DNA of 64,000 nucleotides from Panopea generosa (taxonomy: Eukaryota; Mollusca; Bivalvia; Adapedonta; Hiatellidae): contig CM055896.1 in NCBI GenBank assembly GCA_029582155.1, positions 3,597,616 through 3,661,615 on the forward strand. The letters are read 5' to 3'. Both the position numbers and the translations under genes were made by a program. Below are positions 1,516 to 64,000 of the stretch, in pieces (position 1 is the stretch's first letter; each line of letters starts with the position of its first letter). The notes under the pieces are model-generated. The model ran no database searches. It was not told the origin of the DNA and worked only from the letters and a program-made list of their open reading frames with translations.

Positions 1516-1569
1516 ATTTTGCACTGAAACCGATAATTTGACGAAAGACCATGAATCTAAACTAGAAGA
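1516..1569 (+). CDS. Coiled-coil exon A (18 residues)
   Basis: A 54-nt exon between 'tttattatag' and 'gtaagt', phase 2-2. It encodes FCTETDNLTKDHESKLE plus a split codon. Core residues Phe1, Thr5, Leu8, His12 and Leu16 follow an 11+7 spacing. It has the same length and the same downstream intron sequence as the exon at 21356-21409 ('atgtta..ttaatatgcagta' is shared), so it is an older paralogue of that exon, though the peptide has diverged. A strong donor and an intact frame suggest it is still used. Confidence 0.65.
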
Positions 1570-7500: not shown

Positions 7501-10500
7501 CCAACATGGTAATTATATTGAAAATGGATTTTTAACTTTGGCTACACGCATAAGTTAGACTAAAAAAAAGTTTTAAAACACAATGTTTTTAGGTTGCATA
7601 TACTAATTAATCACTATCATGTCGGTAGACATGTTTTACAGAATAACGATTGTGAGCTAATGACGATTGCCTGTGTTTTTGATAAACTTAATCTGGGTTA
7701 AAATGTAGAACGTTAATGTTAGACTGCTCAGTGTGGTCGTTGAGTTTCCAGATTCTAGTCATACTACGTGTTAACGTTGCTGTGTGTCCATTTACAATGA
7801 CATTTAAATTGTGTTGGGGAAATGAAAAAGGGACTCTTTTTTAGAAGAAAATCTAGATAATTGATATAGTAAGAAGCATAATATGCTTAATCTGCTGTAC
7901 CAAATATTTGATAGCAGGCTTGATATCAGGCTTATTACTTGAAATTATCAACGTTGGCAAATAAGCTGGTTGCCGAATCTCATTGGAACACATGCTCTAT
8001 GACATTTTCTTGTATTTTATTAAAATTGGGTCACTTTTTATAATTTTAGAAAAATTGTCTTCAAGTTGAACTTTTATAGTGTTCTTATGTAAGTAACTTC
8101 TAGTCATAACAAGCATTAAATGTTGACACAAGCTTCATTTTACTGTTGGGTATTTTTTTGTTTTAAGACAAGCTTCCGAAATTCGAGCGAGCTTTGCTCT
8201 GACAATATTTGCTACTCTCTACATAAAGATTCAGGAGCATGTCGACAAACCTGGGCGCAAAAATAGACGTTTTAACTGAATAAGAAACAACACTCAAATC
8301 TAATTATTATATTTACATGTCAGCATGATATTATGTAATATATAAATATATATATATTCTAAATTAACAGCATTATTCAAATGCAATGTAAAAATTAAAA
8401 AAAAAATCCGGTTGTATTTTTTATTCTTTTTACAATCAAACTAATGAAAGAAAGGAACTAGATACCAGGTAGCAGGATTGACAATTGTATGAATGTTTAA
8501 AACTGTGCATTTTAAATCAATGCGTAATATTATAATCAAAATCTGTGTTAAGAATTGTTGATGAAACCTAATATCTCTATAACGTCAGTATGTATAGGAA
8601 ATAATCAACACATTTAACATATGTATGTGTATACATATTCATTGTCGGAAAACTATAAATGTTCCTGTTTAAAACATTCAGTTTGTTTTAATTATCTGTG
8701 ACGTCATACATTAAAGAGTTTATTTCGGGCTTGTTGTAAACCAATGAATTCACAGTTACACACACATCGCAAATTGCAAAGTCTTCATAAACTATAATTC
8801 TAAGATGTCGAAGCGTTAAGAAGTGAACGTCATTACAACATTGTCGAACACATCGAACTTTTAGGTCATCTTATGATTATTTCTTCTTTAATGTTGTACT
8901 ATACATACAGTAAAAGTTTAACATGACCAAGTTACAATTACAATATTTAAAACAAAATACGCAAATTGAAAATCTTACTGAATAATTGGTTACGGAAAAG
9001 GCCAATGTCGATCTGTCAGATATTAAACCTGGACTTACACCCTATCTAGTTTATATATATATATGAACAATTACGGATCTTCTATACTATAAAGTTGGTT
9101 GGAAAACTTATAATCTTGATAATTGCGTGCAACACGACGGACTTTTACTCTTAAATAAGAAAAACAAAAGAAATATAATATGTAAGTCTGTAATATATAA
9201 TGCTATCTAACGTGACTTATATATTCACATAGTTATATAATTTGTACAATACTTGTATAAACACATTTTATCGCCTTAAAGTTTGACCACCAAAAAATTA
9301 TGGCGAGTGAACTTTGTTTATACTTAGCTCGATCGCAAAACAATCATTCAAATCATTTCTCCAAGAACGCTTCGCTATTGGATCTGACAAAGATGCAAAG
9401 AAGGTTATGTTCAGATTACCTGTACGCCATTCATTCAGAGGCTTACATTGAAGGTGTTGACAACGAAAGTTGAAGTCTATTTTAACCGAAGAAAATCTAC
9501 ATTTAATTGGGATTCCAATTATCATAATATATCATTTATAATTGTTACGACGAAAGTTGATTTTCACAAAAATAAGAAATCGGGGACAATACCGGGATTT
9601 TTTTTATTCATACATCAACATACGAAGATCAATATGGCCGAATCCATACCTACAGTGAAGGTTATGCCAAACGGCTGATTGGTTGAAATAAAAATAGCTA
9701 AACATAGCGATATTGGAAATGGAGTTATTCTAGTATTCTAGAAGAAAAATTTGATTGATTGATTGATTATCAAACGTCATTTTTATGCCATCGATGGCTT
9801 ACAAACTATCATTTACCTAACCACTGTTTCCTGGTATCCTGAAAGGTTAACAAGTACTCGAGCACACCCCATCTCCGCGAGTAACTGATAACTTTACCGC
9901 TTGACTGAGCGGTGAGAGACCAATGCTAATGAGATAATGTCGTATATCAATCATCACGGCGACTGTTGTCAGTTGGGGATTCGAACTTACGACCCCTTGA
10001 TTATAAGTCAGACACGTAACCGACAGAGCTAATCGGGCCCGGCGCAGAATAATCTTATTTGTAACTCAAATGTCATGGCCGAACTTTGGTTTCAAGTTAC
10101 AAAACAGCCGCTCCCTTACACAAAAATATCTATGTAAATTTAATGACGGAATGTTTACGTTTAAACAATATCATTTAAAAGGAAATCCAGGTCAGCAATA
10201 AGGATTCGCATCCTACTCTTTCTGATCTTTTTTTTAAATATACTCCACACTGTTTTGTTGACTGTATTATGTTCCACCAAATGCCTGCTGTTGTAACTGT
10301 CCAAACCTTCCCCATACTTTATATTATGTTTGTGTTGTTGGTATTTATAATATCGTACAAAGTATAGTATGCATGTACCCTGTTTCTAGATACATGCTTG
10401 GGAACTACTACCATTTTCCTGTCTTCACAGATATTAATGGTTTTTGATGATTTAGTTTGGCGTACAATTACTTACAATCCGACTTGTGAAGCTGCGCTGT

Positions 10501-13500
10501 TCTCACACAGCTCTTGTCCAAATTTGTAAGATTCCTAATAAAAAAATGCATGTCTTGAAAGCCTCATTTTTTTGTTACTTTGGTACATTGCATTTTTCTG
10601 TGATGTTTATTATTGCAGACTGCAAAACAAACTTGATCAACCTAAACAACGTGAAAACGTCATGAAGGCTGATCGCGCAGGTGATCAATTTATTGTAAGA
10701 AATAAATTACAAATATATGTTTTTTTCATGTAATTTACTTTCTTTTAGCAATCAGCTGTCACTGATGACGAAAACATTGCATGCTATTTTTTTCTATATA
10801 TATCTCATTCTTTAGGCTTTCATAATGTATTTTCATGCATGGCCCTCTTCCAAATATGTCCTTCGAAACAAACAGCAAATTAGTTTACATATTGTAGAAA
10901 CAATGTTAGTGAAGTCATGAACTTTTTAAATGTTATATATTTGTTATATGTATATATCAATATGGTTTCATTTAATATGTTATAAGGTTCCTTTTCTAAA
11001 ATGTGTATAAGTTCTAATTTGGAAATGCTACCCCCTATTGGTAATGAAGCACTAGTTGTTTCGCGAAGCAGTACGTGTCATTTACCTATAATTCTTGATA
11101 TTGATCGAATTATCACGTTATGTGAATTACTTACATATATATATATAAATATGGAGATAATTATTTGTGAATAACCAAGACATAAATGTACAGACCAGAC
11201 TACGGCGAGTGCGCCTGGCTACAATGCAAACCATAGATACAATATCAAGGCCTTTGCCAAACAAATAAATATGGTGTCGACCATGACTTATATACTATGG
11301 AATTACATGCAACACATGTGGACATGGTGGACAAATTTACATACATGAAGTCATAGCTTTGTATGAGTAGGATCCAGTTAAGGATTCATGACTACTCACA
11401 TGCTATATAAAGGACAGATTTATAAACCCGTTGGATCATATAGATACAGTGAATATATTTAATTTCATAAAGGGAGATAATTAAATTCACAACAACGGAA
11501 TTTACGACTTTTTGGATCTTTTCAGATGCTCATTCACAATGCATGATATATATATGGAGATAATTATTTGTTAATAACCAAGACATAAATGTACAGACCA
11601 GACTACGGCGAGTGCGTCTAGCTACAATGCAAACCATAGATACAATATCAAGGCCTCTGCCAAACCAATAAATTTGGTGTCGACCATGACTTATATACTA
11701 TGGAATTACATGAACACATGTGGACAGGGTGGACAAATTTACATACATGAAGTCATAGCTTTATATCAGTAGGATCCAGTTAAGGATTCATGACTACTCA
11801 CATGCTATATAAAGGACAGATTTATAAACCCGTTGGATCATATAGATACAGTGAATTCATATATAGTTAATTTCATAAAGGGAGATAATTAAATTCACAA
11901 CAACGGAATTTACGATTTTTGGGATCTTTTCGGATGCTCATTCACAATGCATGATATATATATGGAGATAATTATTTGTGAATAACCAAGACATAAATGT
12001 ACACACCAGACCCCTAACCCTATATATATCATATATATAACGGTAGCTTGATTTATACTTAATTATTTAAGCACTTTTGCGAACTAAGCTCACGGTATAT
12101 TGCGTGTCGCTCTCCTGTCTGTTTTCGGCGGATGTGGAAGAAGTACTAATGTTGCTTGAAAAGACATCAGATCGAGCCTAGCATGATAAAAATTGCAATC
12201 TCTACCACATAAAGTTATGATTAAGCCCTTTCTTTTGATACCAAAATCACAAAAATATTTTGGTTTGTTCAGGAGGAGTCATGTTTCCAACATCTGCAGT
12301 AACTTTTCTCCGTTTGTGTCACTGTCATCCGCTTCGAATATATTCCAAATTTTTGTTTGTGAGAAAATGATTGACAATTTGCGTATTTTTAAAATACACC
12401 GATGGTTTGCCATGTACAAACATATCCATGTATAATATACTTGAATCTTGTTGGTTGTTAATGGGCAATTCGTCAACAACATTACTCCTTTATTTTAGTG
12501 ATATGTTGTCTGAATCTGTAATCTTGATTTTATCTGCCAATCTGCTGTCGCTTCACAGTTGTCGTCGCTGACTTCACGTGTAAATGTAGGAATTGACGGG
12601 TCGAGATATATTTATTGGTAATTCGTCTAACACTCAGATATCAAACTATGTTTCAAACCCTACACTTAAATTGGACATTTGGCCTCGCACATGAAATTTT
12701 GTTTTCGTTTTACTTGAAAGTAGGCTTTTTTTAAAGCTATAGCATACCTATTATTTATAGTATTACATGCATATATTAAATGTTGCTTCATTTTTAGCTC
12801 GTCTTTTTGAAGAGCTATTGTCATGACCCTGGCGTCGTCGGCGTCGTCGTCGTTGTCGTTGTCGTCGTCTGCTGGTTAAAGTTTCATGTATAGCTCAGCA
12901 TTTTCTCTGTTTCTAGACAAACAACTCATGTTACGGTGACTAAACTTACTAAACACATTCATATCATGTTATACAAACAATGTATATAGATAACTTACCC
13001 AAATTTCCATACTTTGTGCTCTAAAACGTTAGGTTAAAGTTTTTTGTTTAGCTCGGGTTTGGTTAAAGTTTAATGTTTAGCTCAGCCTTTTTCTCTGTTT
13101 CTGAACAAACTACTTATTCTTTTTTTCTTTTTTAAATCATTTTTATTTTTCAGTAATTCTATAAGCTGATCACCATCAACTAAAATAAGTTTACATCACT
13201 GACCTTGACCTATTAAATGGACTTGGTTAATAATGTCATTATCCGGTTAAAAGTTTTATGCGCCTATAACTGTTATTGGGTATTTATATGAATTGTTGTA
13301 CATGTAAATGTATCGAGATTGATAAATTAATCACAGATTGGAAAAAAAACTTTGTATCGTTGTTTGAATTTGCCAGGTCCATTGTCCCATATCTATTTTA
13401 CCATCTGCCCTAGCCCAACCAAGACCCCCACCATGCTGCCCATTTTTTGTTTTTGTTTTTAAATTTGTTTTGTATTAAATCAAATACTCTGCCCTATTTC

Positions 13501-16500: not shown

Positions 16501-17765
16501 ACCCACCTACATCCACAATGCCCACCAGCCCCCACGCCCCCACGTCCCCCACACAGTTAAATGTAGCAGTTTGTTAGACAAACGCACTGGAAAGACTGAT
16601 TTTTATTCTCCAATATTTTTACCATAACATATCTGTCTCCGTATTATCAGACGACTGTTATCATTTCTAGTTCTTAAAATCATGGAGATATGGAAACATA
16701 TACTATATGATAATTCATCAGTCTTCGAGGAAGCAAAGTCCTTCGTGGCCAAGTAGTCTAAGCTACCGTCTCACAATCATCTACCTCTCACCGCTTAGGT
16801 CGTAGGTTTGAGCCCCCCCCCCTCTACCCGAGACAGGTTGCCAGTCGATGGTTTTTCTCAGATTTATTCTGAGGGTTTCCTCTTCCAATAAAAACTAGAT
16901 GTTCCATTTATAACATGAAATGTTTTAAAAATGGCGTTAAATCTCATTTATAACAAGGCGAGGAAGCAGATGTCATACTATTTAATGATTTCTCTTTATT
17001 AGATTGGCAAGTACAGTCAACGACTGTAAGGTGAAAGCAGAGCAAACTGAGTACCAACTTACACAGTCCAGAAACAACGTAAAGGAAAGAGATGAAGCGT
17101 TGAAGAGGTTAGAAAACGTTTAAATAAAACAGAGTAAATTCGGTAGTTCTCTAAAAAATATTTTTGATGAAATCACACGGGTTTATGGGTTGACGAAAGT
17201 GTCTTATGAAACAGTTCATAGATGGAAAAAGAATTTGATTCTGGTGTAGAGTATGTTGAAATTGCAACAAAATCTGGTTGACCAAAAACAGCTACATGTA
17301 ACAAAATCGTGTCTTAAATTATAAAAAATTGTTCGAAATGATGTGCGATGTGCGTGATATAGCATGCATTGAAGGCGTTTCAGTTCATTTCGTTCTGAAA
17401 AAAATCATGAAAGTTAGGACAATTTCTGCTAGGTGGGTGCCCCACTTGTTTACTGGCGGTGAAAAAAGGCATGTGTTGAAACTGTCAAAACACATCTTAA
17501 AATGTTGCCTGAATATAACCAAAGCCAAATTGCAAATTTTGTCACTGGTGACGAAACCTGGGAACACTATTTTGAACAATTGTGAAAGGTTGTAGACAAA
17601 CTATTTGTCACCAAACATGGCAGAAGGTCAGTCAGTGCCTATATTGTAAGTAATACTTACGTTTCGAACATTCACACACCACTTTTCTCATATGTTTTTG
17701 TGTAAATGTATAACGCTTACGAATACAAACTAGTTTCTGTCCACTTATCCTAAACTTACCTTCAG

Positions 17766-17806
<41 letters not shown>

Positions 17807-50800: not shown

Positions 50801-53800
50801 ACCCTGATACATGTAACATAGCAATGTTCGGCATTCTCAGAAATAAGTTGCCTTTAATAAGATCAGACCTCTTTCATGAATACAGTTATATAAGTAATAA
50901 GTAAACGCCAAACACTATTTTGAATCTAAAACGATATTTGACAAAGTCAAATTCACATTTCACTAATTGCTGATCAATTTGATACAGTTTTCAAATTCAA
51001 TATGCACAATTGCAATCTATGTGAATGCATGAATGAATGACGTTCTTTCGATTTTAATGGCAAAATATTCTTCGGGAATTTAACCATGTCTTGCGTTGTA
51101 AAATGGTCCCATATGCTATAATGTGTAAGATGCTATGGATACAATGAGTTAACATTGGGAAAACAGGGGACACGCTAATGATGCTTAAGATAATTCACGC
51201 GCAACAAAGACGAAACCCTCTAACAAGGTGAGTTGCTTTAAGTGAACATATACATTTATGAAATACAATGTAATCAAGACTTAAAAAAATATTTTGCAAC
51301 AATCTATTAGCGAGGTTATCAAATGAGAAATTAACTCCCCTTTCATTAGCAACACATGTCATTAATTATCTCTCTTTCCTCATTACCATTTCATTTATAG
51401 CACTTATGAGCATGTTTCAAATTGTGTAAATAACATACTATAATGCGCATTTAAAACGTTTCCTTTTATTTTCTTTATATCTGTACCATTTTGGAACTGT
51501 CAGTAGTACATTTGTACTAATGCGAATACTAACTGATTTTTTTCTCTCAGGATTCCGACAAATGCCAATAAGCAATACACGTACATTGAACAAAGCAAAT
51601 TTGTTTACAAACGTAACATGAATTCATTTTGCATTTTACAGGTTGGTAAATGAAAAGATAGTTCTTCAACAAAATGCTGAAACGATGTTACAAAAGTATG
51701 TACATATACTCTACTTTTTAGATGTATTATGTGTTAATTCATCGTTTGTATTGAATTAGGTTTAATATTATCCGTAACGATTTCAGTGGTGTTTTTATAC
51801 CAATCATAAATGAAATTAATAAAACTGATTAAGGACATTCTTTAAATAGCTATAACGTTAAATTTGTATTATGGTATGTCTCTGATAAAACAATCTGATT
51901 GAAATGAGTATTCCCCTTAATAACGTAGTTTAACGTCTTCAAACACCATACCATTCATTTTAATACATACCATTGATAGAGTGTCGATACATGTACGACT
52001 GTAAACAGTGAACATAACCAAAAATTATAAACAACCTACGATTGGTTATACGAAGCTTCGTGGACAATTCTAATAAAATCTACATTTATGCAAGTATGCT
52101 GCTACTTTTCTCACAATTCAAGTATTGTTTTAATCTAATCGACATCCAGTAGTTTACTGAATTTAATAAGCCAATGATAATGTCATGGTAACCATAGCAA
52201 CATGCATACACGGGTAGTGCCGTAACTGAATATATTGAAGTATTTTGGTAGATAAATAAATGAACTATATACTCGGGAAATCATCTATCATTGAACTTAC
52301 GGCATCAATTTATGTTGTATGCAAATGTTAGAAATATTAAAGGTAGAGACACTAACAAGCAAACGCGACGTCTGAAGAAATAGCTGCTATGTAGTTTTGT
52401 TTATATTAGCAAAACGCCGGTTAAGAAAATGGAATTGCGTAGTACAGTTTCGGGAAAGTAATTTCTAGTCTACAAAAGGTACAAATTTAAACAAGAAATC
52501 TTAAAGTACATAATGGAACGCATCATAATGGAAGATGGCAGGTGTGGTGTGGACTATATATATTGTCCTAAAATTTAACATGCAGTTTGAAGTTGGATTA
52601 TATACATCTCATTTCAAACTTCAAATCAATCGGACATATCATTTTCATTTAATGAGATTTGCCTACGAACTTCTTGATAACAACTTATATATGATGACAT
52701 GGCATAGTTTTCTTAAGTTACATGGTCCACATTATATGAAACGCAGACGTCCGCTACTACAACAAAGATTAAGGGGCAAACATGTCGACCAATGTTAAGC
52801 TAACCAATACTAAATGAAAATGAATATATATATATAAATTATATTTTGTCCGTAACGAACGACAGTTTGAATATTTATCCATCACGAGGCATTCTGTTTC
52901 ACACAACCATTGAATATGCTGATCATGACATAATATGCGGTTGGTAACTACACTTTTGCTCGGGACCAATCATTTGAAAAACACATAGGTAATAGAAACG
53001 ATCGTATTGAAACACAGGCGAAAAGTTTCGAAGATGTCAAAGTTAACGTATCCCATAATGTTAAGCATTTCGGTGATTCTTATCACAAACGAAAAAAACC
53101 AACAATAAAATAATGTTGACTGTAATAAGTAAATAAAGTTAAAAGTCTACCAAACAACGTAATTTTACAATATGGCTTTGCACTTTTCTCAATTAATTGA
53201 TTCCTTAATACAAACATTATTTTTGAAGACTAATGAGCCCATTCAGGTATATACATACGAAATAATTGATGTTTTTTATTAGCGGTTTTCTTTTGGTTTA
53301 GATATAAAGCAGAGTTAGAAGAAACAAAAACAGGTTACAAAGCAAAGTTAGAAGAAATAAAGACAGACCACAAAGCAAAGTTAGAAAAAATAAAGACAGA
53401 TCACAAAACAAAGATAAAAAAGTAAGTTATTAACAATGTTTTGAAACCTTAGGCCTTAATATTTTACCCATAAATCCCTACTTTTCACGACTTTTGTATG
53501 CCTGTATAATTAACTTACTATTATGATTGGTCTTTAGAATAATTACGTATCTGATATTAGGGTAATTGACTCTCGCTAATGCTACAATCCGTTGGACATA
53601 TATTTGCTTAGTTTTAGGTGTCCATATTTCAAATATGAACTACTTTAAATTATGATAATTTCTACAATAAGATTTTTTGTAGCATTTTTTACAGTCGATT
53701 ATATGACACTTACTGTTCGACTAACCGATTTGCCGAGGAAATGTGTGGACTATTTGATATATGGGACTTGTTGGTATAGACCGTGTACATTTACAATATT

Positions 53801-56800: not shown

Positions 56801-59694
56801 ACATGAACATTATCTAGTTATCCAGTTAGCTAAGTAGATATGAGAAGCAATTGCAGAGCAGTAAATAGGCAACTCCAATGCATCAAATGAGTAAGGGTAA
56901 CAACTTGAATGATAGTTGCTATCACGAACAAACACACATTGTCCATTATTGCGATAGTAAGAGATTCCATCGAAGTATATGGTACAGTTGGTGTCTAAGA
57001 AATTCAAAGTAAACTATTAAAAATCATTATCAATTTTAAATAAATTAAGAGACCGTAGTGGTGGTTTAGTGGTAGAGTGTCTGCGTCGCATGCTGAAGTT
57101 AATGGTTCGATTCCCAGTCTGGTTATACCAATGATTTGAAAAATGGTACTAGAAACTTCCTTGCTTGGTGTTCAGCATTTAGAGGATAGTTCTAGGTCTG
57201 GTCGGCCCGGTGTCAGTATAATGTGACTTGGTGGGGTTATCATTAGATGTGTCTGCGGCATCAACGCTTAGAATACTGTCTCAAGCAGACACCGTCGCGA
57301 TATGATTGAAAAATTGTTGAAAGCGACACTTAACACCATACAACAACAAATAAATTAGAACTTATCCCGTGAAAGGATTTTTATTGGGGATATTATACTC
57401 AATCATCAAGGATTTGTTATTTTAAACAGAGTAATGAAATGCAAAATGTGTTTGGGACATTGTGATTTTCAAGGTGAGCGTTTCAGTTATCTAGTCTAAA
57501 AATGCATGTTATGGGTTTGAGGCAAGCTTTATAGTTTGACCAATAGCCACGCAACCACAAATCATATGTACCTCATCAGTCCCATCAAACAATCTATTAA
57601 TAAAGCTCATTTATAATACAACGTCTGAGCAACAATCTTAGCAACACAAATCAAACAGCCTCTTTCTTTTACCACAACGACTGAATAATACAATAGACAG
57701 TCACGGGACCACAGAACTAAAGTACAACGTTATAAAACAACCACTAAATAAAACCCATTCCTCCTTCATCACACTTCCTAGCCAACAGTCATGGCACCAT
57801 GCAATAGAAGGTCTCTCTGTTTTCACCTTCACTGCAACTCCACTCATGTATATATACATGATTTCCATAATATGATTACTTTCTATGTTTAAATTTACTT
57901 TATATTTTCGTTTCAGAGAAGAAGACAAATACAAGGAAATGGAGCAAAATTACAAAGATAGGTAAGTCTCTACTGTTTTGTTTGCACATATATGCGACAA
58001 ATATCATATCATAAATAAATGCAACTTTAAAGAAGTGTTTAAGTTTTGCGTCAAATCATATGTACACCAGAAGTTTTGAGGACAAAAATAAATTACATCC
58101 AATACACATAATACAAAAATAGAAAATTAAACGCATATCACAACAATTATAACAGGAAATATAGGTAAATACATAACCAATACGAGACGTAACATTTAAA
58201 AGACACAGTCACTGCGATGAGAAATGTAAACTTTAAGGTGAACTCCTGGAATCAGAAATTTTAAAATCATAACAATAAAGACTCATTTTTTAAAAAAATA
58301 TATTCTGTTAAAAATATGAAATATGAAATAAATGTATATCAATATAAGCTGCAATAATTTATTTCATATTTTTATGAAAATGTTTCATGATATGTGAATT
58401 TCCATTTGTGTTTTTGTACTACATGAAATGTATGTTTTAGATACGTGTCTATATTAGTCAGTTTGATGGTTTGTCAAAATAATTATCTAAGATTACTTAG
58501 CAAATCATTTTGTCATGCGTGTACCTATTTCAAAAAAAGTTCAAATGTGGAAAAAATATTTAAACATATCGTATAATTTTTAAATAGCAGGCAAACGGGT
58601 TGATCCACAATTTTAGTCACAGGAAGCCTCGTTTATCTGATTAAGAAAACTATAGGAGATACTTGTGATGTAGAGCAGTTGACCTAGGATCGGGTGGTTG
58701 TCGGTTCGATTCTTCCCAACGCCTATGTTTGATGTCAAAGGGAGAGACACTTTTTGCGCATAAGCTTGGTATTGGTTCTACCCAGGAAGTGATTTATATG
58801 AATTGTAATAACTTGTTTCATAATCGAAGTAAAACAAATAAGTTGAAACTAACGATTTAGAACTATTTATTAAACGAAACCTTTAAAACTTGTAGTGAAA
58901 CCAAAACAACAACCATGGATATGAAGAGAGATTATGGAACAAATGAATGAAAGAAATTGTTAGTTATTCACGTTTTATATTTAAATACTATTTACATACA
59001 ATACTTTACTATTAAAATCATACGTAACAAAAATTGATTCAATTAATCAGAGGTTTAGTTTACACAAATATCCATATCGTAAGTAGCAGCGTTTATCTCT
59101 TTGACAGTTGTGCTCAGACGGTTAAATCGACTTTATTCTTGCCAAGAAAAAAAAACAACAAACGTAACGATAGGACTTTTTCTCCTGGACGCCAATATTT
59201 AAAAAAATATTATTTGTTTGCGATTAGCTCATTTACCCAGAAACAGTTTTGCCAAAAGTCATCAAATTAGTCCATGTTGTGAAATTGGTAGTAGTGTAAA
59301 AATCCTTGCACTACTATTAGTTTGGATAACCTTGACATATTCGAGTAATTAATCAAGCTTATGAAATGTAACATTGTTTCCGCTTAGTATTGTTCTTTTG
59401 AAACTGTTAGACCCAGAAATACCCAAGAACATTGTTTGGTAAAAAATATACCAAATATTTAGAAAACAGTAAATGATTTAACTTACCATAGCTATGCAAT
59501 ATAAAGCAAAATATATACATTTCAATAACATGTGTTCCATGTAACATGTGTTCTGCTTATAAACATTTCTGAAGGAAGCATTTGCTTTGCCATTGTCGCT
59601 AATATAGTTCAGTACATTATAGGTTGACAAGCTATGAGGCCAACACTAACAAAAAAATACAAGACAGTAACGCGATCTCTGGGAGGCTACAGAA
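1516..59694 (+). CDS. Partial multi-exon gene for a coiled-coil protein (internal part)
   Basis: Fifteen small exons on the plus strand can be joined into one open frame of about 323 residues. Each follows an AG acceptor and precedes a GT donor, and all are phase 2 at both ends, so the split codon at each junction is usually Arg or Lys. The peptides are very rich in Lys, Glu, Gln and Asp, with hydrophobic residues spaced 4-3-4 or 4-3-4-4, so a long alpha-helical coiled coil is the expected fold. No catalytic domain, signal peptide or membrane segment is visible. The first exon has an acceptor and the last a donor, so both gene ends lie outside. Coding sequence is under 2 percent of the span. 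The family is not recognised; myosin-tail, golgin or CCDC-type proteins are only structural analogies. Join order is inferred and not supported here by transcripts. Confidence 0.72.
1570..2365 (+). other. Intron block paralogous to 21410-22330
   Basis: Non-coding sequence that aligns with the intron after the 21356 exon: the 'attgcatacc..ggggaatttaac' and 'cataaagtcatgtaaaata' segments are shared, as is 'gaggttaaacacagat'. The SINE present at 21697-21956 is absent here, so it was inserted after this block duplicated, or lost here. Confidence 0.6.
2366..2680 (-). repeat. Dispersed ~300-bp repeat, copy 1
   Basis: Shares long stretches with 22580-22920 and 23010-23330 and with their duplicates, including 'caacaaagatacatcgccaa' and 'gagttattcctctttgtcc'. 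Minus-strand open frames of about 80 codons exist in several copies, but they shift frame relative to each other in the middle, so this looks like a repeat and not a conserved protein. Confidence 0.5.
2681..3089. other. AT-rich stretch, possible old promoter-like patch
   Basis: No exon seen. Around 2935-2990 there is a GC-richer patch ('cctgcgtaacgtcacaact') just upstream of the degenerate cysteine-rich coding relic. It may be the 5' flank of that dead gene; this is speculative. Confidence 0.3.
3104..3269 (+). pseudogene. Relic resembling the P2X7 receptor C-terminal cysteine domain
   Basis: In one frame the sequence reads FEPEFSEAELNELENERSSE (from 3116). In another frame it reads HFCSCENCVMMPSSDENTC followed by SRCNEI and a stop at 3267-3269. 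Acidic FEPE...E-L-E...E followed by a C-x-C-x-x-C...MP...C-x-x-C stretch is what I remember of the P2RX7 C-terminal zinc-binding domain, which is greatly expanded in bivalves. The two halves are in different frames, so at least one frameshift has occurred, and the segment ends early. It lies in an intron of the coiled-coil gene. Assignment is from motif memory only. Confidence 0.42.
3270..4350. other. Intronic DNA, nothing recognised
   Basis: AT-rich sequence without exon-like segments. An open frame of 77 codons at 3853-4086 has no splice borders, no domain and no counterpart in the paralogous block. It is not called as a gene. Confidence 0.4.
4352..4632 (-). mobile_element. tRNA-derived SINE, family 1 (full-length, minus)
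   Basis: On the minus strand it opens with 'ggcccgataagcttggtcag' (box-A like), continues to a box-B-like 'gagttcgaatccccacc' and ends in 'ccatcga..ggcaaaaaaa'. The same body ('accactg...ggatcctg..aggttaac') occurs in the elements at 9752, 18300, 18413, 21697, 38548, 39207 and 47885. It is the commonest SINE family in this window. Confidence 0.75.
4633..5283. other. Intronic DNA with a short (TA)n run
   Basis: No coding signal. Contains an (AT)n run near 4999-5016 and a GC-richer patch with 'cgcgagaactagaacggaag' around 5059-5080. No homologue of this stretch is present in the paralogous block, so it was inserted here or lost there. Confidence 0.4.
5284..5560 (-). repeat. Block strongly conserved between old paralogues, with minus-strand ORF
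   Basis: Aligns with 23430-23665 and 32340-32565; a core such as 'ttacgtgaagcattgcatgg' is unchanged although flanking DNA has diverged. The minus strand is open for 64-71 codons in all three copies and starts MDRCTFQR, with PPCNASRKISKV conserved. The main length difference between old copies is 9 nt, which keeps the frame. This could be a coding fragment of an unrecognised repeat or chance. No splice sites were identified. Confidence 0.35.
5561..8431. other. Long intron, partly paralogous to 23.7-24.45 kb
   Basis: 5640-5860 and 7630-7990 align with 23765-23990 and 24030-24450 (shared 'gataatgacaattgcct'-type stretches and 'aaatctagataattgatata'). The middle part, 5900-7600, has no match. 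It contains an (AAAT)n patch near 6017-6045 and the homopolymer tract at 6585-6665. No exon is seen; the paralogue of the 26423 exon, expected near 8.0-8.4 kb, is missing. Confidence 0.5.
6585..6665. repeat. Low-complexity C-run / A-rich CAA tract
   Basis: A run of cytosines passes directly into A-rich (CAA)n-like sequence. The open frames on both strands here (6471-6701 minus and 6571-6759 plus) are produced by this tract and are not genes. Confidence 0.9.
8432..8467 (+). pseudogene. Decayed copy of the 38090 coiled-coil exon
   Basis: The sequence after it ('ggtagcaggattgacaatt') matches the intron start after the exon at 38090-38131 ('ggtaagaggattgacaatt'), and the upstream T-rich stretch also aligns. 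The exon itself is shortened, the AG acceptor is lost and the donor reads gtagca. It is the remnant of an old duplicated exon and should not be spliced. Confidence 0.5.
8952..9019 (+). pseudogene. Decayed copy of the 38315 coiled-coil exon, with stop
   Basis: Aligns with the exon at 38315-38377: 'caaattgaaaatcttactga' against 'caaattgagaaactaactga'. The local reading gives QIENLTE followed by a TAA stop at 8983-8985. The length differs from 63 nt, the acceptor is not AG and the donor GT is gone. Together with the relic at 8432-8467, in the same order as the functional pair, it shows that a whole exon block was duplicated and then died. Confidence 0.6.
9020..9469 (+). other. Intron segments paralogous to 37.7 kb and 26.9 kb
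   Basis: 9065-9130 matches 37725-37800 ('ggatcttctatact' and 'ggttggaaaactta'). 9200-9345 matches 26870-27010 ('agtgaac..tgtttatac' and 'agctcgatcg'). No coding signal. Confidence 0.45.
9752..10045 (-). mobile_element. tRNA-derived SINE, family 1, present before the old duplication
   Basis: Starts on the plus strand with the (GATT)n tail and ends with the tRNA-like head 'gacagagctaatcgggcccg'. The same insertion, at the same flanks, is found in shortened form at 18413-18585, so it predates the block duplication. Confidence 0.75.
10619..10680 (+). pseudogene. Broken copy of the 63-nt coiled-coil exon (62 nt, frame lost)
   Basis: Homologous to the exons at 19202 and 28092: it begins CTGCAAAAC after 'tattgcag' and keeps ENVMKADR. 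It has lost one base near its 3' end and is 62 nt long, so it ends in phase 1, not phase 2; joining it to the next exon (17003) would shift the frame. The donor has weakened to gtgatc and a proline (Gln-Pro-Lys) has entered the helix. It is best read as a dead exon that is skipped. RNA data could still show use with a compensating change. Confidence 0.65.
11135..12030. repeat. ~404-bp tandem repeat, two units plus a partial third
   Basis: Units begin 'atggagataattatttgt' at about 11150, 11552 and 11960 and run through 'aaccaagacataaatgtaca' and 'gtaggatccagttaaggatt'. The third breaks off after about 55 bp at 'agacccctaaccctatatat'. The same unit occurs at 20.1-21.2 and 29.0-30.1 kb, including inverted copies. 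It may be the core of a non-autonomous element; no transposase is visible. Confidence 0.75.
12031..12796 (+). other. Intron block with weak match to 19840-20075
   Basis: The stretch around 12540-12660 ('cttcacagttg', 'atcaaactat', 'accctacacttaa') parallels 19970-20075, extending the old duplication rightward. Open frames on both strands at 12193-12571 overlap each other and lack support. Confidence 0.4.
13443..13665 (+). repeat. Left part of a ~115-bp C-rich tandem array
   Basis: Units contain 'tttgttttgtattaaatc', 'atttcaactt.gttacc' and 'ccccaagaccctcacccc'. About two units precede the inserted element; the same array resumes at 15219. Confidence 0.75.
13666..15218 (+). mobile_element. 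Nested repeat element, ends 'atgccccccaaaa...ttggggggcatg'
   Basis: Starts 'atgccccccaaaaaatttt', followed by 'gtctgtccgtccgtcc', and ends 'ggggggcatgcgacac' plus '...tttcttgttt'. The C-run and G-run ends are inverted complements. Inside, a unit of about 145-170 bp repeats at least five times ('catgcatagatgg' at about 13763, 13931, 14100, 14265 and 14410), with 'acctcaaaggtcaaggtcac' in each, then decays rightward. It sits in the middle of the ~115-bp array, so it is a later insertion. Open frames in it come from the repeats. Confidence 0.7.
15219..15860 (+). repeat. Right part of the ~115-bp C-rich tandem array
   Basis: Five to six further units with 'ttttgtattaaat' and 'accccaagac', increasingly degenerate to the right. 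It continues the array that begins at 13443. Confidence 0.75.
16742..16965 (+). mobile_element. tRNA-derived SINE, tRNA-Leu/Ser-like head
   Basis: Head 'tggccaagtagtctaagc' (box-A like), then 'gtcgtaggtttgagcccc' (box-B like). A body with 'tttctcagatttattctgag' and 'ggcgttaaatctcattta' follows. A C-run interrupts the head. Confidence 0.6.
17003..17107 (+). CDS. Coiled-coil exon B (35 residues, five heptads)
   Basis: A 105-nt exon after 'tctctttattag', phase 2-2. It starts LASTVNDCKVKAEQTEYQLT and ends ERDEALK plus a split Arg codon. Core positions 1, 5, 8, 12, 15, 19, 22, 26, 29 and 33 are Leu, Val, Cys, Ala, Thr, Leu, Ser, Val, Arg and Leu, a clean heptad pattern across exactly five turns. 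The donor is gttaga, weaker than the gtaagt used elsewhere; reading through would give R-L-E-N-V and a stop. A mariner relic begins close downstream. It has no paralogue in the window. Confidence 0.68.
17150..17645 (+). pseudogene. Dead mariner transposase fragment
   Basis: One frame reads ISARWVPHLFTGGEKRHVLK. After a frameshift, another reads LPEYNQSQIANFVTGDETWE and then TKHGRRS. ARWVPH...K, the GDETW catalytic block and 'HGRR' are mariner transposase features. Stops and frameshifts are present and the N-terminal part is poor, so the copy is inactive. It lies in the intron directly after exon B. Inverted ends were not identified. Confidence 0.75.
17646..17997. other. Intron with a TAA/ATA microsatellite
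   Basis: Holds an (ATA)n microsatellite at about 17767-17824. The minus-strand open frame across it is low complexity. Nothing else recognised. Confidence 0.6.
18300..18412 (-). mobile_element. Truncated family-1 SINE inserted next to an older SINE
   Basis: A (GATT)n tail, 'caacgtcatttttatgccat' and 'cactgtttcctgggatcc', then broken off before the tRNA-like head. It is absent at the equivalent place near 9745, so it arrived after the old block duplication. Confidence 0.7.
18413..18585 (-). mobile_element. Family-1 SINE, internally deleted
   Basis: Same insertion as 9752-10045 but missing the middle: 'gaaaggttaacaag' runs directly into 'ggattcgaactcatgacc'. It ends with the tRNA-like head 'gagctaatcgggcccg'. 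Confidence 0.75.
19202..19264 (+). CDS. Coiled-coil exon C, copy 1 (21 residues)
   Basis: A 63-nt exon between 'tgttattgcag' and 'gtgagc', phase 2-2. It encodes LQNELEQSKQRENVM then KADRD and a split Arg codon: three heptads, with Leu1 and Leu5 in core positions. Identical to 28092-28154 and related to the dead exon at 10619. Confidence 0.72.
20085..20470 (-). repeat. Inverted unit of the ~400-bp repeat
   Basis: Reverse complement of the unit at 11150-11550: reads 'aaccttaactggatcctact' and '...cgccgtagt..tgtgtacgtttatgtctgg'. With the direct units at 20520-21170 it forms an inverted pair. Confidence 0.7.
20520..21175 (+). repeat. Two shortened direct units of the ~400-bp repeat
   Basis: Units start at about 20530 and 20870 ('agagataat...tttgtgaataacc'), each with 'gtaggatcca..ta.ggattcatga' and 'tgctatataaaggaca'. 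They are shorter than the 11-kb units because internal pieces are missing. The array ends about 180 bp before exon D. Confidence 0.7.
21356..21409 (+). CDS. Coiled-coil exon D, copy 1 (18 residues)
   Basis: A 54-nt exon after 'cttgcttcttcacag', before gtaagt, phase 2-2. It encodes KDQAHEQTLQKCQQAIE plus a split Lys/Asn codon. Spacing of Thr8/Leu9, Cys12 and Ile16 suits an 11+7 period. Identical to 30246-30299; an older paralogue is the exon at 1516. Confidence 0.72.
21697..21956 (+). mobile_element. Family-1 SINE (plus strand)
   Basis: Reads 'gggtctaatccccgcccg' at the tRNA-like side, then 'ctggttaacctttcagg' and 'ccctcgatggcgtaaaaatt', and ends in 'attcattcaatcagtcaagc'. The head is partly lost. 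Duplicated at 30587-30846. Confidence 0.7.
22330..23340. repeat. Two copies of the dispersed ~300-bp repeat plus ATGAT microsatellite
   Basis: 22580-22920 and 23010-23330 are related to each other and to 2366-2680 ('ctttgtatt.aacgttgat', 'acaaagatac..c.ccgacgcc'). Between them lies an (ATATG)n / ATGAT microsatellite at about 22963-22999, which is about 10 bp longer in the second large copy (31853-31900). Confidence 0.55.
23430..23665 (-). repeat. Conserved block with minus-strand ORF, copy 1
   Basis: Paralogue of 5284-5560. The minus strand is open for 70 codons starting MDRCTFQRACFCKF. A 9-nt difference from the left copy keeps the frame. Possible coding fragment of an unknown repeat. Confidence 0.35.
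24981..25228 (+). other. Open frame of ~82 codons, unknown, disabled in the second copy
   Basis: Opens after a TGA and reads IKPKEYRRLESEYYSLAREW, later TLFQFCNIEYYGWN, to a TAG. A neighbouring frame continues LVSRKSDKKFNVPTGHMY just downstream, suggesting a decayed longer coding region. In the second copy (33871-34118) a C-to-T change makes a stop at 'ttgttttag'. No family recognised; probably a relic. Confidence 0.3.
26423..26485 (+). CDS. Coiled-coil exon E, copy 1 (21 residues)
   Basis: A 63-nt exon after 'tttatttttgcag', before gtgagg, phase 2-2. It encodes LKHKLQGSEKQVEAKKSELD and a split Arg codon. Core positions 1, 5, 8, 12, 15 and 19 are Leu, Leu, Ser, Val, Lys and Leu: three heptads. 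Identical to 35328-35390. Its counterpart in the old left block is missing. Confidence 0.75.
26486..27959. other. Intron to the end of duplication copy 1
   Basis: AT-rich, no further exon. The 66-codon open frame at 26637-26837 is also open in copy 2, but only because the copies are recent. No splice or domain evidence. Confidence 0.5.
28092..28154 (+). CDS. Coiled-coil exon C, copy 2
   Basis: Identical in sequence, splice sites and phase to 19202-19264. If the duplication is real, the mRNA can carry the C-D-E module (60 residues) twice, and unequal crossing-over or skipping could change its number without breaking frame. Confidence 0.68.
28975..30065. repeat. ~400-bp repeat units (one inverted, two direct), copy 2
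   Basis: Duplicate of 20085-21175, with the inverted unit at 28975-29360 and direct units at 29410-30065. Only a few base changes separate the two arrays. Confidence 0.75.
30246..30299 (+). CDS. Coiled-coil exon D, copy 2
   Basis: Identical to 21356-21409, including the 'cttcacag' acceptor and gtaagt donor. Confidence 0.68.
30587..30846 (+). mobile_element. Family-1 SINE, copy 2
   Basis: Duplicate of 21697-21956, with a few changes such as cattgagtct to cattgtgtct. Confidence 0.7.
31220..32230. repeat. Dispersed ~300-bp repeats and ATGAT microsatellite, copy 2
   Basis: Duplicate of 22330-23340. The microsatellite near 31853-31900 is expanded relative to copy 1. Confidence 0.55.
32340..32565 (-). 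repeat. Conserved block with minus-strand ORF, copy 2
   Basis: Duplicate of 23430-23665. The minus-strand frame is still open (64 codons), but one fewer T at 'agttcttaaacc' alters its end. Confidence 0.35.
33871..34118 (+). pseudogene. Copy 2 of the unknown ~82-codon frame, interrupted
   Basis: Same sequence as 24981-25228 but with a nonsense change (TTT CAG to TTT TAG) in the middle, showing no strong constraint on this frame. Confidence 0.4.
34374..34381. other. TACATGTA insertion, candidate Tc1-type excision footprint
   Basis: Copy 1 has 'ggtaaaaag' at 25472; copy 2 has 'ggtacatgtaaaaag'. The TA has become TACATGTA. From memory, this is the footprint left when a Tc1-like element with CA...TG ends excises. 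Confidence 0.55.
34772..34779. other. Second TACATGTA insertion in copy 2
   Basis: Copy 1 reads 'gcggatatattgg' (25863); copy 2 reads 'gcggatacatgtatattgg'. It is the same 6-bp change at a TA, independent of the first. Confidence 0.55.
35328..35390 (+). CDS. Coiled-coil exon E, copy 2
   Basis: Identical to 26423-26485 with the same acceptor and donor, phase 2-2. By inference it joins exon F at 38090. Confidence 0.7.
36864..38089. other. Unique intron after the duplication
   Basis: AT-rich. 37725-37800 is paralogous to 9065-9130. No exon, repeat family or RNA gene recognised; the 70-codon minus frame at 37218-37430 is unsupported. Confidence 0.5.
38090..38131 (+). CDS. Coiled-coil exon F (14 residues, two heptads)
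   Basis: A 42-nt exon after 'gttcttattttcag', before gtaaga, phase 2-2. It encodes QLSHIQQMDEEFI plus a split Arg codon. Ile5, Met8 and Phe12 occupy core positions. A decayed paralogue lies at 8432-8467. Confidence 0.7.
38315..38377 (+). CDS. Coiled-coil exon G (21 residues)
   Basis: A 63-nt exon between 'ataatgattacag' and gtaaga, phase 2-2, only 183 bp after exon F. It encodes KNDQIEKLTEELKNEMDNVD and a split Arg codon. Ile5, Leu8, Leu12, Met16 and Val19 make a good helical stripe. A decayed paralogue with a stop lies at 8952-9019. Confidence 0.75.
38548..38847 (-). mobile_element. Family-1 SINE (full-length, minus)
   Basis: Tail 'gattgattgtgtttgattga' at the left, body with 'ccactgtttcttgggatcct', tRNA-like head '...gactgagataatcgggcccg' at the right. 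Inserted in the intron after exon G. Confidence 0.8.
39207..39400 (+). mobile_element. Family-1 SINE, 3' part (plus)
   Basis: Starts inside the element ('cgtgatgattgatatacgat') and ends 'ccctcgatggcataaatt' plus a short A/T tail. The tRNA-like head is missing. Confidence 0.65.
39455..40475 (+). repeat. 25-bp minisatellite with alternating variants
   Basis: About forty copies of 'cctacaaccagtcgttatc' plus a 6-bp variable end (gataaa, gataca or caatga). Some units drop to about 18 bp ('actacaaccagtcgttatc'). Longer groups of variants recur, for example near 39880-40080 and 40260-40330, suggesting higher-order duplication. The left edge contains 'agggttagggtaagggtta', which is short and telomere-like by chance. 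There is no spacer structure, so it is not a CRISPR array. Confidence 0.9.
40476..41739. other. Intron, nothing recognised
   Basis: AT-rich DNA. The 76-codon frame at 40646-40876 includes a (CT)n patch and has no splice support. Confidence 0.5.
41740..41793 (+). CDS. Coiled-coil exon H (18 residues)
   Basis: A 54-nt exon after 'aactattcgatag', before gtacca, phase 2-2. It encodes AAKEKTDYMVKAQKDID and a split Arg codon. Tyr8/Met9, Ala12 and Ile16 follow the 11+7 spacing seen in the other 18-residue exons. Both splice sites are weaker than average, so the call relies on length, phase and composition. Confidence 0.65.
41794..42823. other. Intron, nothing recognised
   Basis: AT-rich, with no repeat family or exon identified. 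The 72-codon minus-strand frame at 42358-42576 is unsupported. Confidence 0.5.
42824..43258 (+). repeat. Direct repeat, left copy
   Basis: Shares 'tttgttctat.taaaataagg' and '...gtggtaaaaaa', then 'agaaatcacaactacta' and 'gtaactgtgtagtgaga', with 44285-44514. The middle of this copy, about 43000-43100, is absent from the right copy. The two lie about 1.45 kb apart and could be remnants of long terminal repeats or of an old tandem duplication. Confidence 0.65.
43259..44284. other. AT-rich DNA between the direct repeats
   Basis: No open frame or transposon protein seen. If the flanking repeats are terminal repeats, this would be an internal region with no coding left. Confidence 0.45.
44285..44514 (+). 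repeat. Direct repeat, right copy
   Basis: Shorter partner of 42824-43258; see that entry for shared stretches. Confidence 0.65.
44515..45422. other. AT-rich DNA, nothing recognised
   Basis: No exon, repeat family or long frame identified. Confidence 0.45.
46401..46541 (-). pseudogene. Coding-like remnant ending ...VTKAKKY
   Basis: On the minus strand a 46-codon frame reads, in part, GEDGLRGIFPASNGDGVPRV before a TAG. A frameshifted stretch between here and the next fragment reads YKKEDLVKLLCDISYSAQNA. Composition looks protein-like and unlike the surrounding AT-rich DNA, but no family is recognised. Confidence 0.35.
46668..46879 (-). CDS. Unknown terminal exon-like coding segment (minus strand)
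   Basis: After an acceptor-like 'actttattctgtatttgtag' on the minus strand, a phase-2 start gives RNGLMPNITSMRAAVEVESS, then RPGLPIPPEGYWYSDDD and ...QTAIQKLCK with a stop: about 70 residues. Codon use and the Pro-Pro-Glu-Gly-Tyr-Trp / Asp-rich stretch look like real protein. It lies inside the TTAA-flanked element, opposite in strand to the coiled-coil gene. Function unknown; it may be an element-encoded protein or a pseudogene. Confidence 0.45.
47045..47235 (+). mobile_element. tRNA-derived SINE, same family as 747-922
   Basis: Head with 'attgcgggtttgatcccta' (box-B like), body 'ggttctactcgggaagcgga' and tail 'ataagttggtataaacc'. Inserted in the 3.4-kb element. Confidence 0.6.
47635..47748 (-). 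pseudogene. Coding-like fragment inside the 3.4-kb element
   Basis: The minus strand reads YTEDSDSLSALYCLEVCQVI and then SKPRFPVGQEVQCSVQ over 38 codons before a TAG, after an acceptor-like 'gtaatccag'. Cys-rich and protein-like. It lies between the fragments at 48.2-48.3 and 46.7-46.9 kb on the same strand, so they could be successive exons of one gene. Not recognised. Confidence 0.35.
47885..48085 (+). mobile_element. Family-1 SINE (plus, headless)
   Basis: Matches the body from 'atcattcgtatctcatcgct' to 'cttgatggcacgaaaatga' and ends in 'attcaatcatcaatca'. Degenerate copy. Confidence 0.6.
48207..48326 (-). pseudogene. Coding-like fragment (39 codons), first of the minus-strand set
   Basis: On the minus strand, after 'ttatgcagacttag', it reads TYDSIAQKGLGEYVYNVRQN, then CGYVNRVAYGKNTPSK and a stop. 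Base composition is richer in GC than its neighbours. By position it would be upstream of the 47.7 and 46.9 kb fragments. No family recognised. Confidence 0.38.
48830..49145. other. AT-rich DNA after the 3.4-kb element
   Basis: No feature recognised. The open frame at 48648-48911 runs across the right inverted end of the element and is not a gene. Confidence 0.45.
49146..50660 (+). repeat. Decayed 'gtccgttcgtgcgtcc' repeat with degenerate internal units
   Basis: 'atggtgatggggcattaat' and 'cccatgtccgttcgtgcgtc' at 49150-49200 resemble the left ends of the elements at 13666 and 60931. Phrases such as 'tggtt.cgac/ccgat' and 'ttgat(a)t.tgtt/cgatgt' recur at about 49310, 49560 and 50600. A second 'tgtctgtccatttgtgtgtg' lies at 50470. 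Boundaries are uncertain. Confidence 0.4.
50661..51641. other. Intron before exon I
   Basis: AT-rich, no repeat family assigned. A good acceptor-like 'gatttttttctctcag' occurs at about 51535-51550, followed by a short open segment, but its donor and phase are poor; see the rejected list. Confidence 0.45.
51642..51695 (+). CDS. Coiled-coil exon I (18 residues)
   Basis: A 54-nt exon after 'ttgcattttacag', before gtatgt, phase 2-2. It encodes LVNEKIVLQQNAETMLQ and a split Lys/Arg-type codon. Leu1, Leu8, Ala12 and Met15/Leu16 sit on the core. Confidence 0.7.
51696..53301. other. Intron, nothing recognised
   Basis: AT-rich with no assigned repeats. Open frames at 52535-52798 (plus) and 52769-52969 (minus) have no splice, domain or homology support. 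Confidence 0.5.
53302..53421 (+). CDS. Coiled-coil exon J (40 residues, 11-residue repeats)
   Basis: A 120-nt exon after 'ttttggtttag', before gtaagt, phase 2-2. It contains three hendecads, YKAELEETKTG, YKAKLEEIKTD and HKAKLEKIKTD, then HKTKIK. The 33-nt DNA units are nearly identical ('aaagcaaagttagaa'), so the exon itself grew by tandem duplication. Core residues at 1, 5, 12, 16, 19, 23, 27, 30, 34 and 38 define a hendecad stripe, which predicts a straight or right-handed coil segment within an otherwise mainly heptad protein. Length 40 = 3x11+7. Confidence 0.8.
53422..54607. other. Intron, nothing recognised
   Basis: AT-rich. Three overlapping open frames at 54059-54493 lack support. Confidence 0.5.
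54608..55272 (+). repeat. ~165-bp tandem repeat, four units
   Basis: Units start at about 54611, 54778, 54943 and 55107 with 'tagggtaattg.cattcgtt'. Each contains 'ttcacccttttcgatacctt', 'gtatatacagcact' and 'agaggaagtacgtctg'. The last ends at 'actaaaccaac'. Units are highly similar, so the array is fairly young. Confidence 0.88.
55273..57049. other. Intron, nothing recognised
   Basis: AT-rich, no assigned repeat, no exon with splice borders. Minus-strand frames at 55264-55479, 56467-56685 and 56810-57007 are unsupported. Confidence 0.5.
57050..57350 (+). mobile_element. tRNA-derived SINE with '...gttgaaagcgac.ttaacacc' 3' end
   Basis: Head 'gtggtttagtggtagagtgt' (box A) and 'aatggttcgattccc' (box B) are well preserved. 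The 3' end 'ttgttgaaagcgacacttaa' plus 'caacaacaaataaa' matches what I recall of widespread bivalve SINE tails (RUDI/Meta type); the family name is from memory. Confidence 0.7.
57351..57916. other. Intron before exon K
   Basis: No features recognised. The minus-strand frame at 57701-57934 overlaps exon K and is a shadow. Confidence 0.45.
57917..57961 (+). CDS. Coiled-coil exon K (15 residues)
   Basis: A 45-nt exon after 'tattttcgtttcag', before gtaagt, phase 2-2. It encodes EEDKYKEMEQNYKD plus a split Arg codon. Tyr5, Met8 and Tyr12 lie on the core; 15 = 11+4 continues the register of the hendecad exon before it. Confidence 0.7.
   Translation, partial: RRRQIQGNGAKLQR
57962..59622. other. 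Intron with one SINE
   Basis: AT-rich. Holds the SINE at 58635-58860. The 78-codon frame at 59034-59270 is unsupported. Confidence 0.5.
58635..58860 (+). mobile_element. tRNA-derived SINE, related to 47045-47235
   Basis: Head with 'gtagagcagttgacctagg' and box-B-like 'gtcggttcgattcttccc'; body 'attggttctacccaggaagt'; tail 'aaataagttgaaac'. Diverged copy. Confidence 0.55.
59623..59694 (+). CDS. Coiled-coil exon L (24 residues)
   Basis: A 72-nt exon after 'gtacattatag', before gtaagt, phase 2-2. It encodes LTSYEANTNKKIQDSNAISG then RLQ and a split codon. The core pattern is weaker (Leu1, Ile12, Leu22), so the coil may be loosening here. The strong donor shows the gene continues to the right. 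Confidence 0.62.
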
Positions 59695-63371: not shown

Positions 63372-64000
63372 CGAGGCTAAATTACGAAGAGACGGCCCAA
63401 GTTTTGGCCATGCTTGAATGTGGGCGAACACAAGAATAAGTCGCTAGACGTTTTAACGTCTCTCGTTCGACAATACTGCGTCTCGTTCGCTGTGTCAGAG
63501 ACACGGGAACGTTTGTCGATAGGCGACGTTCAGGCAGACCGCGTGTAACGTCAGTATGGCAGGATAATTACATATGTCAACAACATCTGCGTGACAGATA
63601 TCTTACGGCTAATCCACGTCACGTTAAGTGGTAGGTAACCGTCGACGCCCTGTAAGTCGACATTCAGTCAGAAATCGGCTTAGAGAACGGGAAATTAGCT
63701 GCCGCAGGCCCTACCGCGGTCTATTTCTTACGCGACGTCACAGTCACCAACGTATTATTTGGGCAAGCAACCGTCGCTGTCAGCGTTAACAGAACGTAGT
63801 GTTTAGTGACGAGTCACGTTTCAATTTGTCGAACACCGACGGACGTATCCGTGTCTACAGACAATGTCATGAACGCTACGTTATAATTGGGTTCTGCAGC
63901 TAAACCGTTACGGTGGGTGCGGAGTTATGGTCTTGGCAGTTATCAACTATAGCTTTAAGTCCCAAATCGCCGTGTGCTAAGGTAATCTCACAGCCAAGCG
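63372..64000 (+). pseudogene. Degenerate Tc1-like transposase, runs off the window
   Basis: In pieces of frame: LNYEETAQVLAMLECGRTQE, stop, VARRFNVSRSTILRLVRC, then VDRRRSGRPRVTS (paired helix-turn-helix and the GRPR-like motif), later VVFSDESRFNLSNTDGRIRV with the SDESRF catalytic block typical of Tc1 DDE transposases. Several stops and frameshifts make it non-functional. The rest of the element lies beyond the right edge. Confidence 0.82.

Follow-up and report, generated by a model that had tools for sequence, protein, structure and literature searches.

A phase-2 exon array in coiled-coil register, probably part of a MIEAP/SPATA18-like gene, in Panopea generosa

The window, meaning the whole stretch of 64,000 nucleotides of Panopea generosa DNA analyzed in this study, probably covers the inner part of one of three MIEAP/SPATA18-like genes arranged in tandem on C3. 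Judged from the sequence, the coiled-coil half of the encoded protein would be built from symmetric exons of class 2-2, which mostly start at one position of the coil and could be changed without loss of frame or register.

The array comprises 15 exons, whose positions, lengths and phase were given correctly in the initial annotation: all 15 are bordered by AG and GT, are free of stops and have phase 2-2. Their description as 15 intact exons holds insofar as all 15 are present, but only 12 are distinct, since e6-e8 duplicate e3-e5. Fourteen of the 15 are open in phase 2 alone, the exception being e14. The exons are as follows, each with its copies or other support.

1516..1569, + strand: exon e1, 18 residues, phase 2-2; also present as intact copies on C6 and, at 101205, in the next C3 gene
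17003..17107, + strand: exon e2, 35 residues; related to the 42-residue A exons at the protein level only, with one 7-residue gap
19202..19264, + strand: exon e3 (type D), 21 residues; its copies at -89967, at -86767 and on C6 have intact borders
21356..21409, + strand: exon e4 (type F), 18 residues; six copies on C6, five of them also recovered by the DNA-level search; three of the four examined with intact borders
26423..26485, + strand: exon e5 (type G), 21 residues; two copies on C6, borders intact
28092..28154, + strand: exon e6, 21 residues; tandem copy of e3
30246..30299, + strand: exon e7, 18 residues; tandem copy of e4
35328..35390, + strand: exon e8, 21 residues; tandem copy of e5
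38090..38131, + strand: exon e9, 14 residues; copy on C6 with intact borders, beside e10 there too
38315..38377, + strand: exon e10, 21 residues; copy on C6 with intact borders
41740..41793, + strand: exon e11, 18 residues; both splice sites weak (A -2.4, D 1.6), register supported for e11-e15 as a group
51642..51695, + strand: exon e12, 18 residues; register supported for e11-e15 as a group
53302..53421, + strand: exon e13, 40 residues, about 3.5 units of 11 residues; 33-nt tandem repeat with 3.3 copies
57917..57961, + strand: exon e14, 15 residues; strong splice sites, open in phase 1 also
59623..59694, + strand: exon e15, 24 residues; its acceptor is weak (A -1.3)

Support differs by exon. 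Intact paralogues in the same phase were found for 9 of the 15, e2 is backed by protein-level similarity, and e11-e15 by splice sites and register. For e2 and e11-e15, the DNA-level search (E<=0.01; 40 of 54 candidates scored) returned self matches only. A likeness of e12 to exon B, located upstream of the window, was seen by eye and was not found by tblastn. Splice candidates in the window were also ranked by the sum of acceptor and donor scores (A+D) without any amino-acid filter. Thereby, phase 2 was obtained for 9 of 10 candidates on the plus strand versus 1 of 5 on the minus strand at A+D>=7, for 9 of 12 versus 4 of 10 at A+D>=6, and for 11 of 18 versus 5 of 13 at A+D>=5. Eight of the nine phase-2 candidates on the plus strand at A+D>=6 are annotated exons, three of them being second tandem copies; the other is 63499, where the open stretch 63499-63630 resembles part of a Tc1-like transposase. 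In a scan of 264 kb filtered for coil composition, 26 of 33 candidates on the plus strand and 0 of 5 on the minus strand had phase 2, with overlapping alternatives and tandem copies included in these counts. Phase-2 coil exons extend upstream of the window as A (42 residues, -5054), B (18 residues, -3208) and Ab (42 residues, -991; all in window numbering), and these three share the symmetric class 2-2 with the 15 window exons. The search for a start exon yielded only a single candidate, a conserved stretch from ATG to donor (-9897/-9836) for which no additional support was obtained.

Other features were observed in and around the locus. Arrays of six units of about 168 bp (13730-14704) and of four units of about 166 bp (54605-55348) are located between exons, and a minisatellite with about 39 copies of a 25-bp unit (39423-40469) lies between e10 and e11. 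Downstream of the array, an open frame with very long polyglutamine runs was found at 70001-70468 (window numbering), and an open frame with a C1q domain (PF00386, E=5e-17; L027:5913-6473) about 96 kb downstream of the window.

The exon order A-B-Ab-e1-D-F-G-e9-e10 is common to the window gene on C3 and to C6, where a second D, further F copies, an exon E and additional candidates are interspersed. The next C3 gene retains A, B, Ab and e1. Between these and its 3′ exons, 3 candidate coil exons were detected, versus 13 in the window gene in the same scan; the latter are 12 of the 14 annotated exons after e1 plus 66098, weak exons escaping the scan. At least 42 DNA matches to 16 exons with flanks (40 of 54 candidates scored) all lie in two clusters, C3 3.5-3.7 Mb and C6 33.7-33.9 Mb, and a dispersed repeat is not indicated by matches confined in this way. 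An e14-like match at 105845 has no donor and was left out of the count. Outside the two clusters, weak A-like exons are present at C3 0.86 Mb (E=0.015). A third cluster with PF16026 on the same strand, at C3 0.72-0.89 Mb, contains an A-type 42-residue phase-2 exon in a tandem copy of 97% identity 2.4 kb apart, and also a phase-2 candidate of 21 residues that follows the same register; its A-type exon has a poor donor (D -2.5) and failed the exon scan.

Counted from the first full codon, the 12 distinct exons have 42 hydrophobic residues at positions 1 and 5 modulo 7, versus a mean of 22.5 after shuffling (0 of 5000 shuffles). For the 11 exon families, the value was 38 versus 20.9 by shuffling (0 of 20,000, likewise 0 of 20,000 in a control with random offset). 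P was 5e-5 (random offset 0.00175) for the six families backed by a paralogue or by protein-level similarity, and 0.0042 (random offset 0.018; 0.024 with any of the seven registers allowed) for the five families without such backing, e11-e15. The initial annotation had nearly all exons starting on a core position. The group bias in this direction is strong and exceeds what the initial annotation could demonstrate, but the proposed register scores best in 8 of 12 exons only, in three of the eight by a tie, while e4, e11, e13 and e15 score best in other registers.

Joining A, B, Ab and e1-e15 resulted in an 18-exon model of 424 residues with 0 stops and 0 prolines, in which the duplicated 60 residues are included twice. 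The model has a single periodicity peak at 3.53 residues with a power of 4.84, whereas the maxima of shuffled versions averaged 0.86 and 0 of 500 reached the peak; after trimming of exon starts by 0-6 residues, mean power was 1.76 and 0 of 1000 trials equaled the 4.84 of the joined model. One coherent peak means that the hydrophobic stripe is continuous across the exon junctions, so the proposal that each exon resumes the stripe of the previous one was borne out. The periodicity of 3.53 and the absence of proline over 424 residues also point to a coiled coil N-terminal to the MIEAP domain described below. Flanking exons outside the window had been expected to follow the same pattern. A, B and Ab do so in their class 2-2, but 37-residue phase-2 candidates in the two other C3 copies, gene 0 (-34000) and gene 2 (111337), start in another register, their best registers being 2 or 5 and not 1. 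These two candidates are alike by eye (KQW near the start), though a tblastn search with one of them at E<=1 missed the other; gene 0 also holds a 41-residue and an 18-residue candidate off the register rule. Exon borders thus lie at a fixed repeat position as a group, with some misfits outside the window, and the register rule is strong, though not absolute. Variability was only marginally rarer in core columns (15 of 79) than in surface columns (58 of 188, P=0.05), and for switches between hydrophobic and polar residues no difference between core and surface was found (9 of 79 versus 18 of 188, P=0.66).

Exon lengths had been read as sums of 7 and 11 residues. This is correct for 10 of the 12 distinct exons, but not for the lengths 15 and 24, and the 37 residues of the candidates in genes 0 and 2 are no such sum. 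As a proof the arithmetic was rejected for being too permissive, since of the 27 possible lengths in the range 14-40 it fits 13. Multiples of 7 were found in 5 of 12 distinct exons (P=0.02) and in 4 of 11 families (P=0.06), with the 42 residues of A representing the e2 family. Lengths of 0 or 4 modulo 7 were found in 8 of 11 families (P=0.003), these classes having been picked post hoc. The register evidence outweighs the length evidence.

Downstream of the array, the two final exons (81.7-82.3 kb in window numbering), joined approximately, match PF16026 (MIEAP/SPATA18) with E=1.3e-11, and their equivalents at -20.4 kb and 130.8 kb match with E=2.1e-8 and 1.4e-9, respectively. The three tandem C3 copies reach 45.3, 34.8 and 38.7 bits versus a cut-off of 27, and each match is located downstream of a same-strand array. 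All three copies have a 40-residue 0-0 exon (67488 and two counterparts), an exon encoding LKQLLDMRK with phases 1-0, as read in two of the copies, and a last exon that runs from phase 0 to the stop, so that a conserved MIEAP end of mixed phase follows the array. Strand, order and the three-fold tandem recurrence suggest that the array is joined to the MIEAP end in one mRNA. The locus had been interpreted as a modular rod gene, and its modular build is supported, yet the rod is not free-standing and most likely represents the coiled-coil half of a MIEAP-family protein with 3′ exons in phases 0 and 1. In the Pfam search with the joined coil, Sec8_N was right at its cut-off and Filament and others were under theirs, which we took as cross-talk between coils. 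Genome-wide, 84 matches to PF16026 were obtained, 71 of them marked above the cut-off, with each exon counted separately. For the most MIEAP-like copy of the genome (C15), a scan of 8 kb revealed no array of short coil exons in phase 2. A dense PF16026 cluster at C3 13.84-14.04 Mb contains many open frames (74 to 338 residues listed) that are longer than the last exons described here, and is perhaps an intron-poor MIEAP subfamily.

Growth and decay have both left traces in the array, as listed here.

19069..27958, + strand: tandem duplication unit 1, the D-F-G block, 8890 bases, holding e3-e5
27959..36863, + strand: tandem duplication unit 2, 8905 bases, holding e6-e8
8953..9012, + strand: dead relative of e10 with an internal stop and no preceding AG
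10619..10680, + strand: dead relative of e3, 62 nt from AG to GT and not divisible by 3

The two units of about 8.9 kb are identical at 8822 of 8880 aligned bases (99.35%) with 12 gap events, or 98.97% identical when gaps are counted, and the duplication of the D-F-G block adds 60 residues in frame. Length has thus changed in frame at three scales, by this 60-residue block, by the 33-nt (11-residue) units in e13 and by the gap of 7 residues in the alignment of e2 with the A exons. The in-frame copy of D-F-G, the differing content of the paralogous arrays and the coherent joined stripe uphold the original suggestion that duplication or deletion of exons keeps frame and register, and so does the 97% tandem copy with the 42-residue A-type exon in the third cluster, its poor donor notwithstanding. 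On C6, one dead F copy has GG as donor and another has no acceptor at the expected place. Bivalve alleles are expected to diverge over a range that includes 99.35% identity, and the breakpoints of the 8.9-kb units share, by eye, at most a base or two, so two alleles set in tandem by the assembly could also produce this pattern, which would void it as evidence for recent growth of the rod. We regard such an artefact as rather unlikely, as other duplicated exons exceed the allelic level: where compared, F copies on C6 and D copies on C3 diverge from their window counterparts by 7-19%. The duplication with 2.4-kb spacing in another cluster, at 97% identity, points in the same direction, though it might itself be allelic.

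Selection was estimated from comparisons that are few and not independent. The ratio dN/dS was 0.25 for the 5′ exons A, B and Ab between C3 and C6, and 0.18 for A, B, Ab and e1 between two C3 genes; purifying selection is seen in the sequences of A, B and Ab. Eight exons pooled gave 0.46 between C3 and C6, and two C6 copies compared with each other gave 0.51. The pool of e1, F, G, e9 and e10 gave 1.11 (22 differences, including one C6 F copy with a lost donor), and single types gave 2.1 for F (dead C6 copy included), 2.9 for G and 0.69 for D. Identity is 81-88% for the F, G and e9 exons (93% for the dead F copy) versus 84-98% for flanking 100-base intron pieces, 95% for e10 (flanks 95-99%), and 93% for e1 against C6 (flanks 84-90%). 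In the tested window exons, dN/dS and exon-versus-intron identity did not demonstrate constraint on the array middle, and the sequences would fit relaxed or diversifying selection there. The array could be mostly a decaying relic, in which the 5′ and C-terminal exons form the working gene and the central exons drift, still open owing to their recency, and are skipped or unexpressed. Exons F, G and e9 being mostly more divergent than their own introns, the dN/dS of about 1 in the tested window exons, and the dead exons within the array and on C6 all favor this, but we consider it unlikely, because frames and splice borders are kept at 81-96% exon identity, bar the F copy with the lost donor and the F copy without acceptor, and because the e11-e15 group is still in register (P=0.0042, or 0.024 for any register). 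A more serious possibility, though one we hold only tentatively, is that the uniform phase and register were merely inherited from a few founder exons of class 2-2 starting on a core position, with no selection for interchangeability. Recognizable relatives exist among the exons (A, Ab and e2; D and G), and a clonal origin was proposed for the 90-bp exons of Tetrahymena (PMC6564038). Against this, lengths vary from 14 to 42 residues and most window families are mutually unrelated at E<=0.05, a threshold at which short exons give low power. Inheritance and retention for interchangeability are compatible with each other and not exclusive.

In the reading we prefer, that of a MIEAP-like gene with an interchangeable coil half, most exons would begin with a core residue, encoded by the first full codon, with the split codon of the junction falling just outside the core, and would span a near-whole number of hydrophobic stripes according to the joined periodicity. 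From a common start position and near-whole stripes it follows that an exon or block may be duplicated, lost and possibly skipped with frame and core register kept. The exons of the array would be spliced into one mRNA terminating in the MIEAP domain. Coiled coils rise by 0.1485 nm per residue, and about 425 residues would give a rod of about 63 nm. If the roles are divided as in human Mieap, with mitochondrial lipid bound by the C-terminal part and assembly and partners set by the coil half, the cassettes would lengthen or re-surface the assembly half with the lipid-binding end unchanged, and changes in the array may retune assembly.

The gene logic resembles that of fibrillar collagen, in which 54-nt symmetric exons match the Gly-X-Y repeat of the triple helix. 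The analogy to collagen drawn in the initial annotation is apt for repeat-matched symmetric exons but for nothing beyond gene logic, as glycine does not occupy every third residue here (4 Gly in 424 residues). Disordered Arg/Ser-rich segments and mitochondrial condensates with cardiolipin are further traits of the MIEAP/SPATA18 family. For human Mieap, PMC10845071 describes two coiled coils within residues 92-311, a C-terminal region that concentrates the protein in mitochondrial condensates, and an N-terminal coiled-coil half needed for the multi-phase structure. The coiled coil is N-terminal to the MIEAP domain in human Mieap and, by exon order, in the window gene; the latter differs in having about 425 residues of coil-array exons. 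In the portion of PMC8382680 considered, the bivalve MIEAP expansion appears as orthogroup OG24 with the row 807, 53.1, 0.6, which we take as total, mean per bivalve and mean per outgroup. The family is large there, as in this genome; that portion covers gene numbers, and the exon architecture is added here. The relevant parts of PMC6564038 describe Tetrahymena LRR genes with tandem arrays of 90-bp phase-2 exons that grow by exon duplication, and report purifying selection for most of them. By this account, class 2-2 exons in step with a protein repeat and freely duplicable are the shared property, whereas the ciliate arrays encode LRRs with fixed 90 bp and those described here a coiled coil with exons of 14-42 residues and no single length. 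The bivalve MIEAP expansion and arrays of phase-2 exons (Tetrahymena LRR) are already published. Register-locked coil exons in MIEAP were not found in print within the open-licence PMC literature.

It is conceivable, though improbable on present data, that the bivalve MIEAP repertoire changes fast, with rods re-cut and re-lengthened by in-register cassettes, conserved ends, a middle surface under diversifying pressure and perhaps alternatively spliced, and partners specific to each paralogue. If true, such MIEAP rods would be the coil-based counterpart of variable repeat arrays. The array represents an animal example of exon borders tracking a coiled-coil register, in which exon duplication can lengthen the coil without a register fault. 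It also offers a structural entry to the expansion of MIEAP genes in bivalves, and it becomes testable whether Mieap assembly is tuned by the length or content of the rod.
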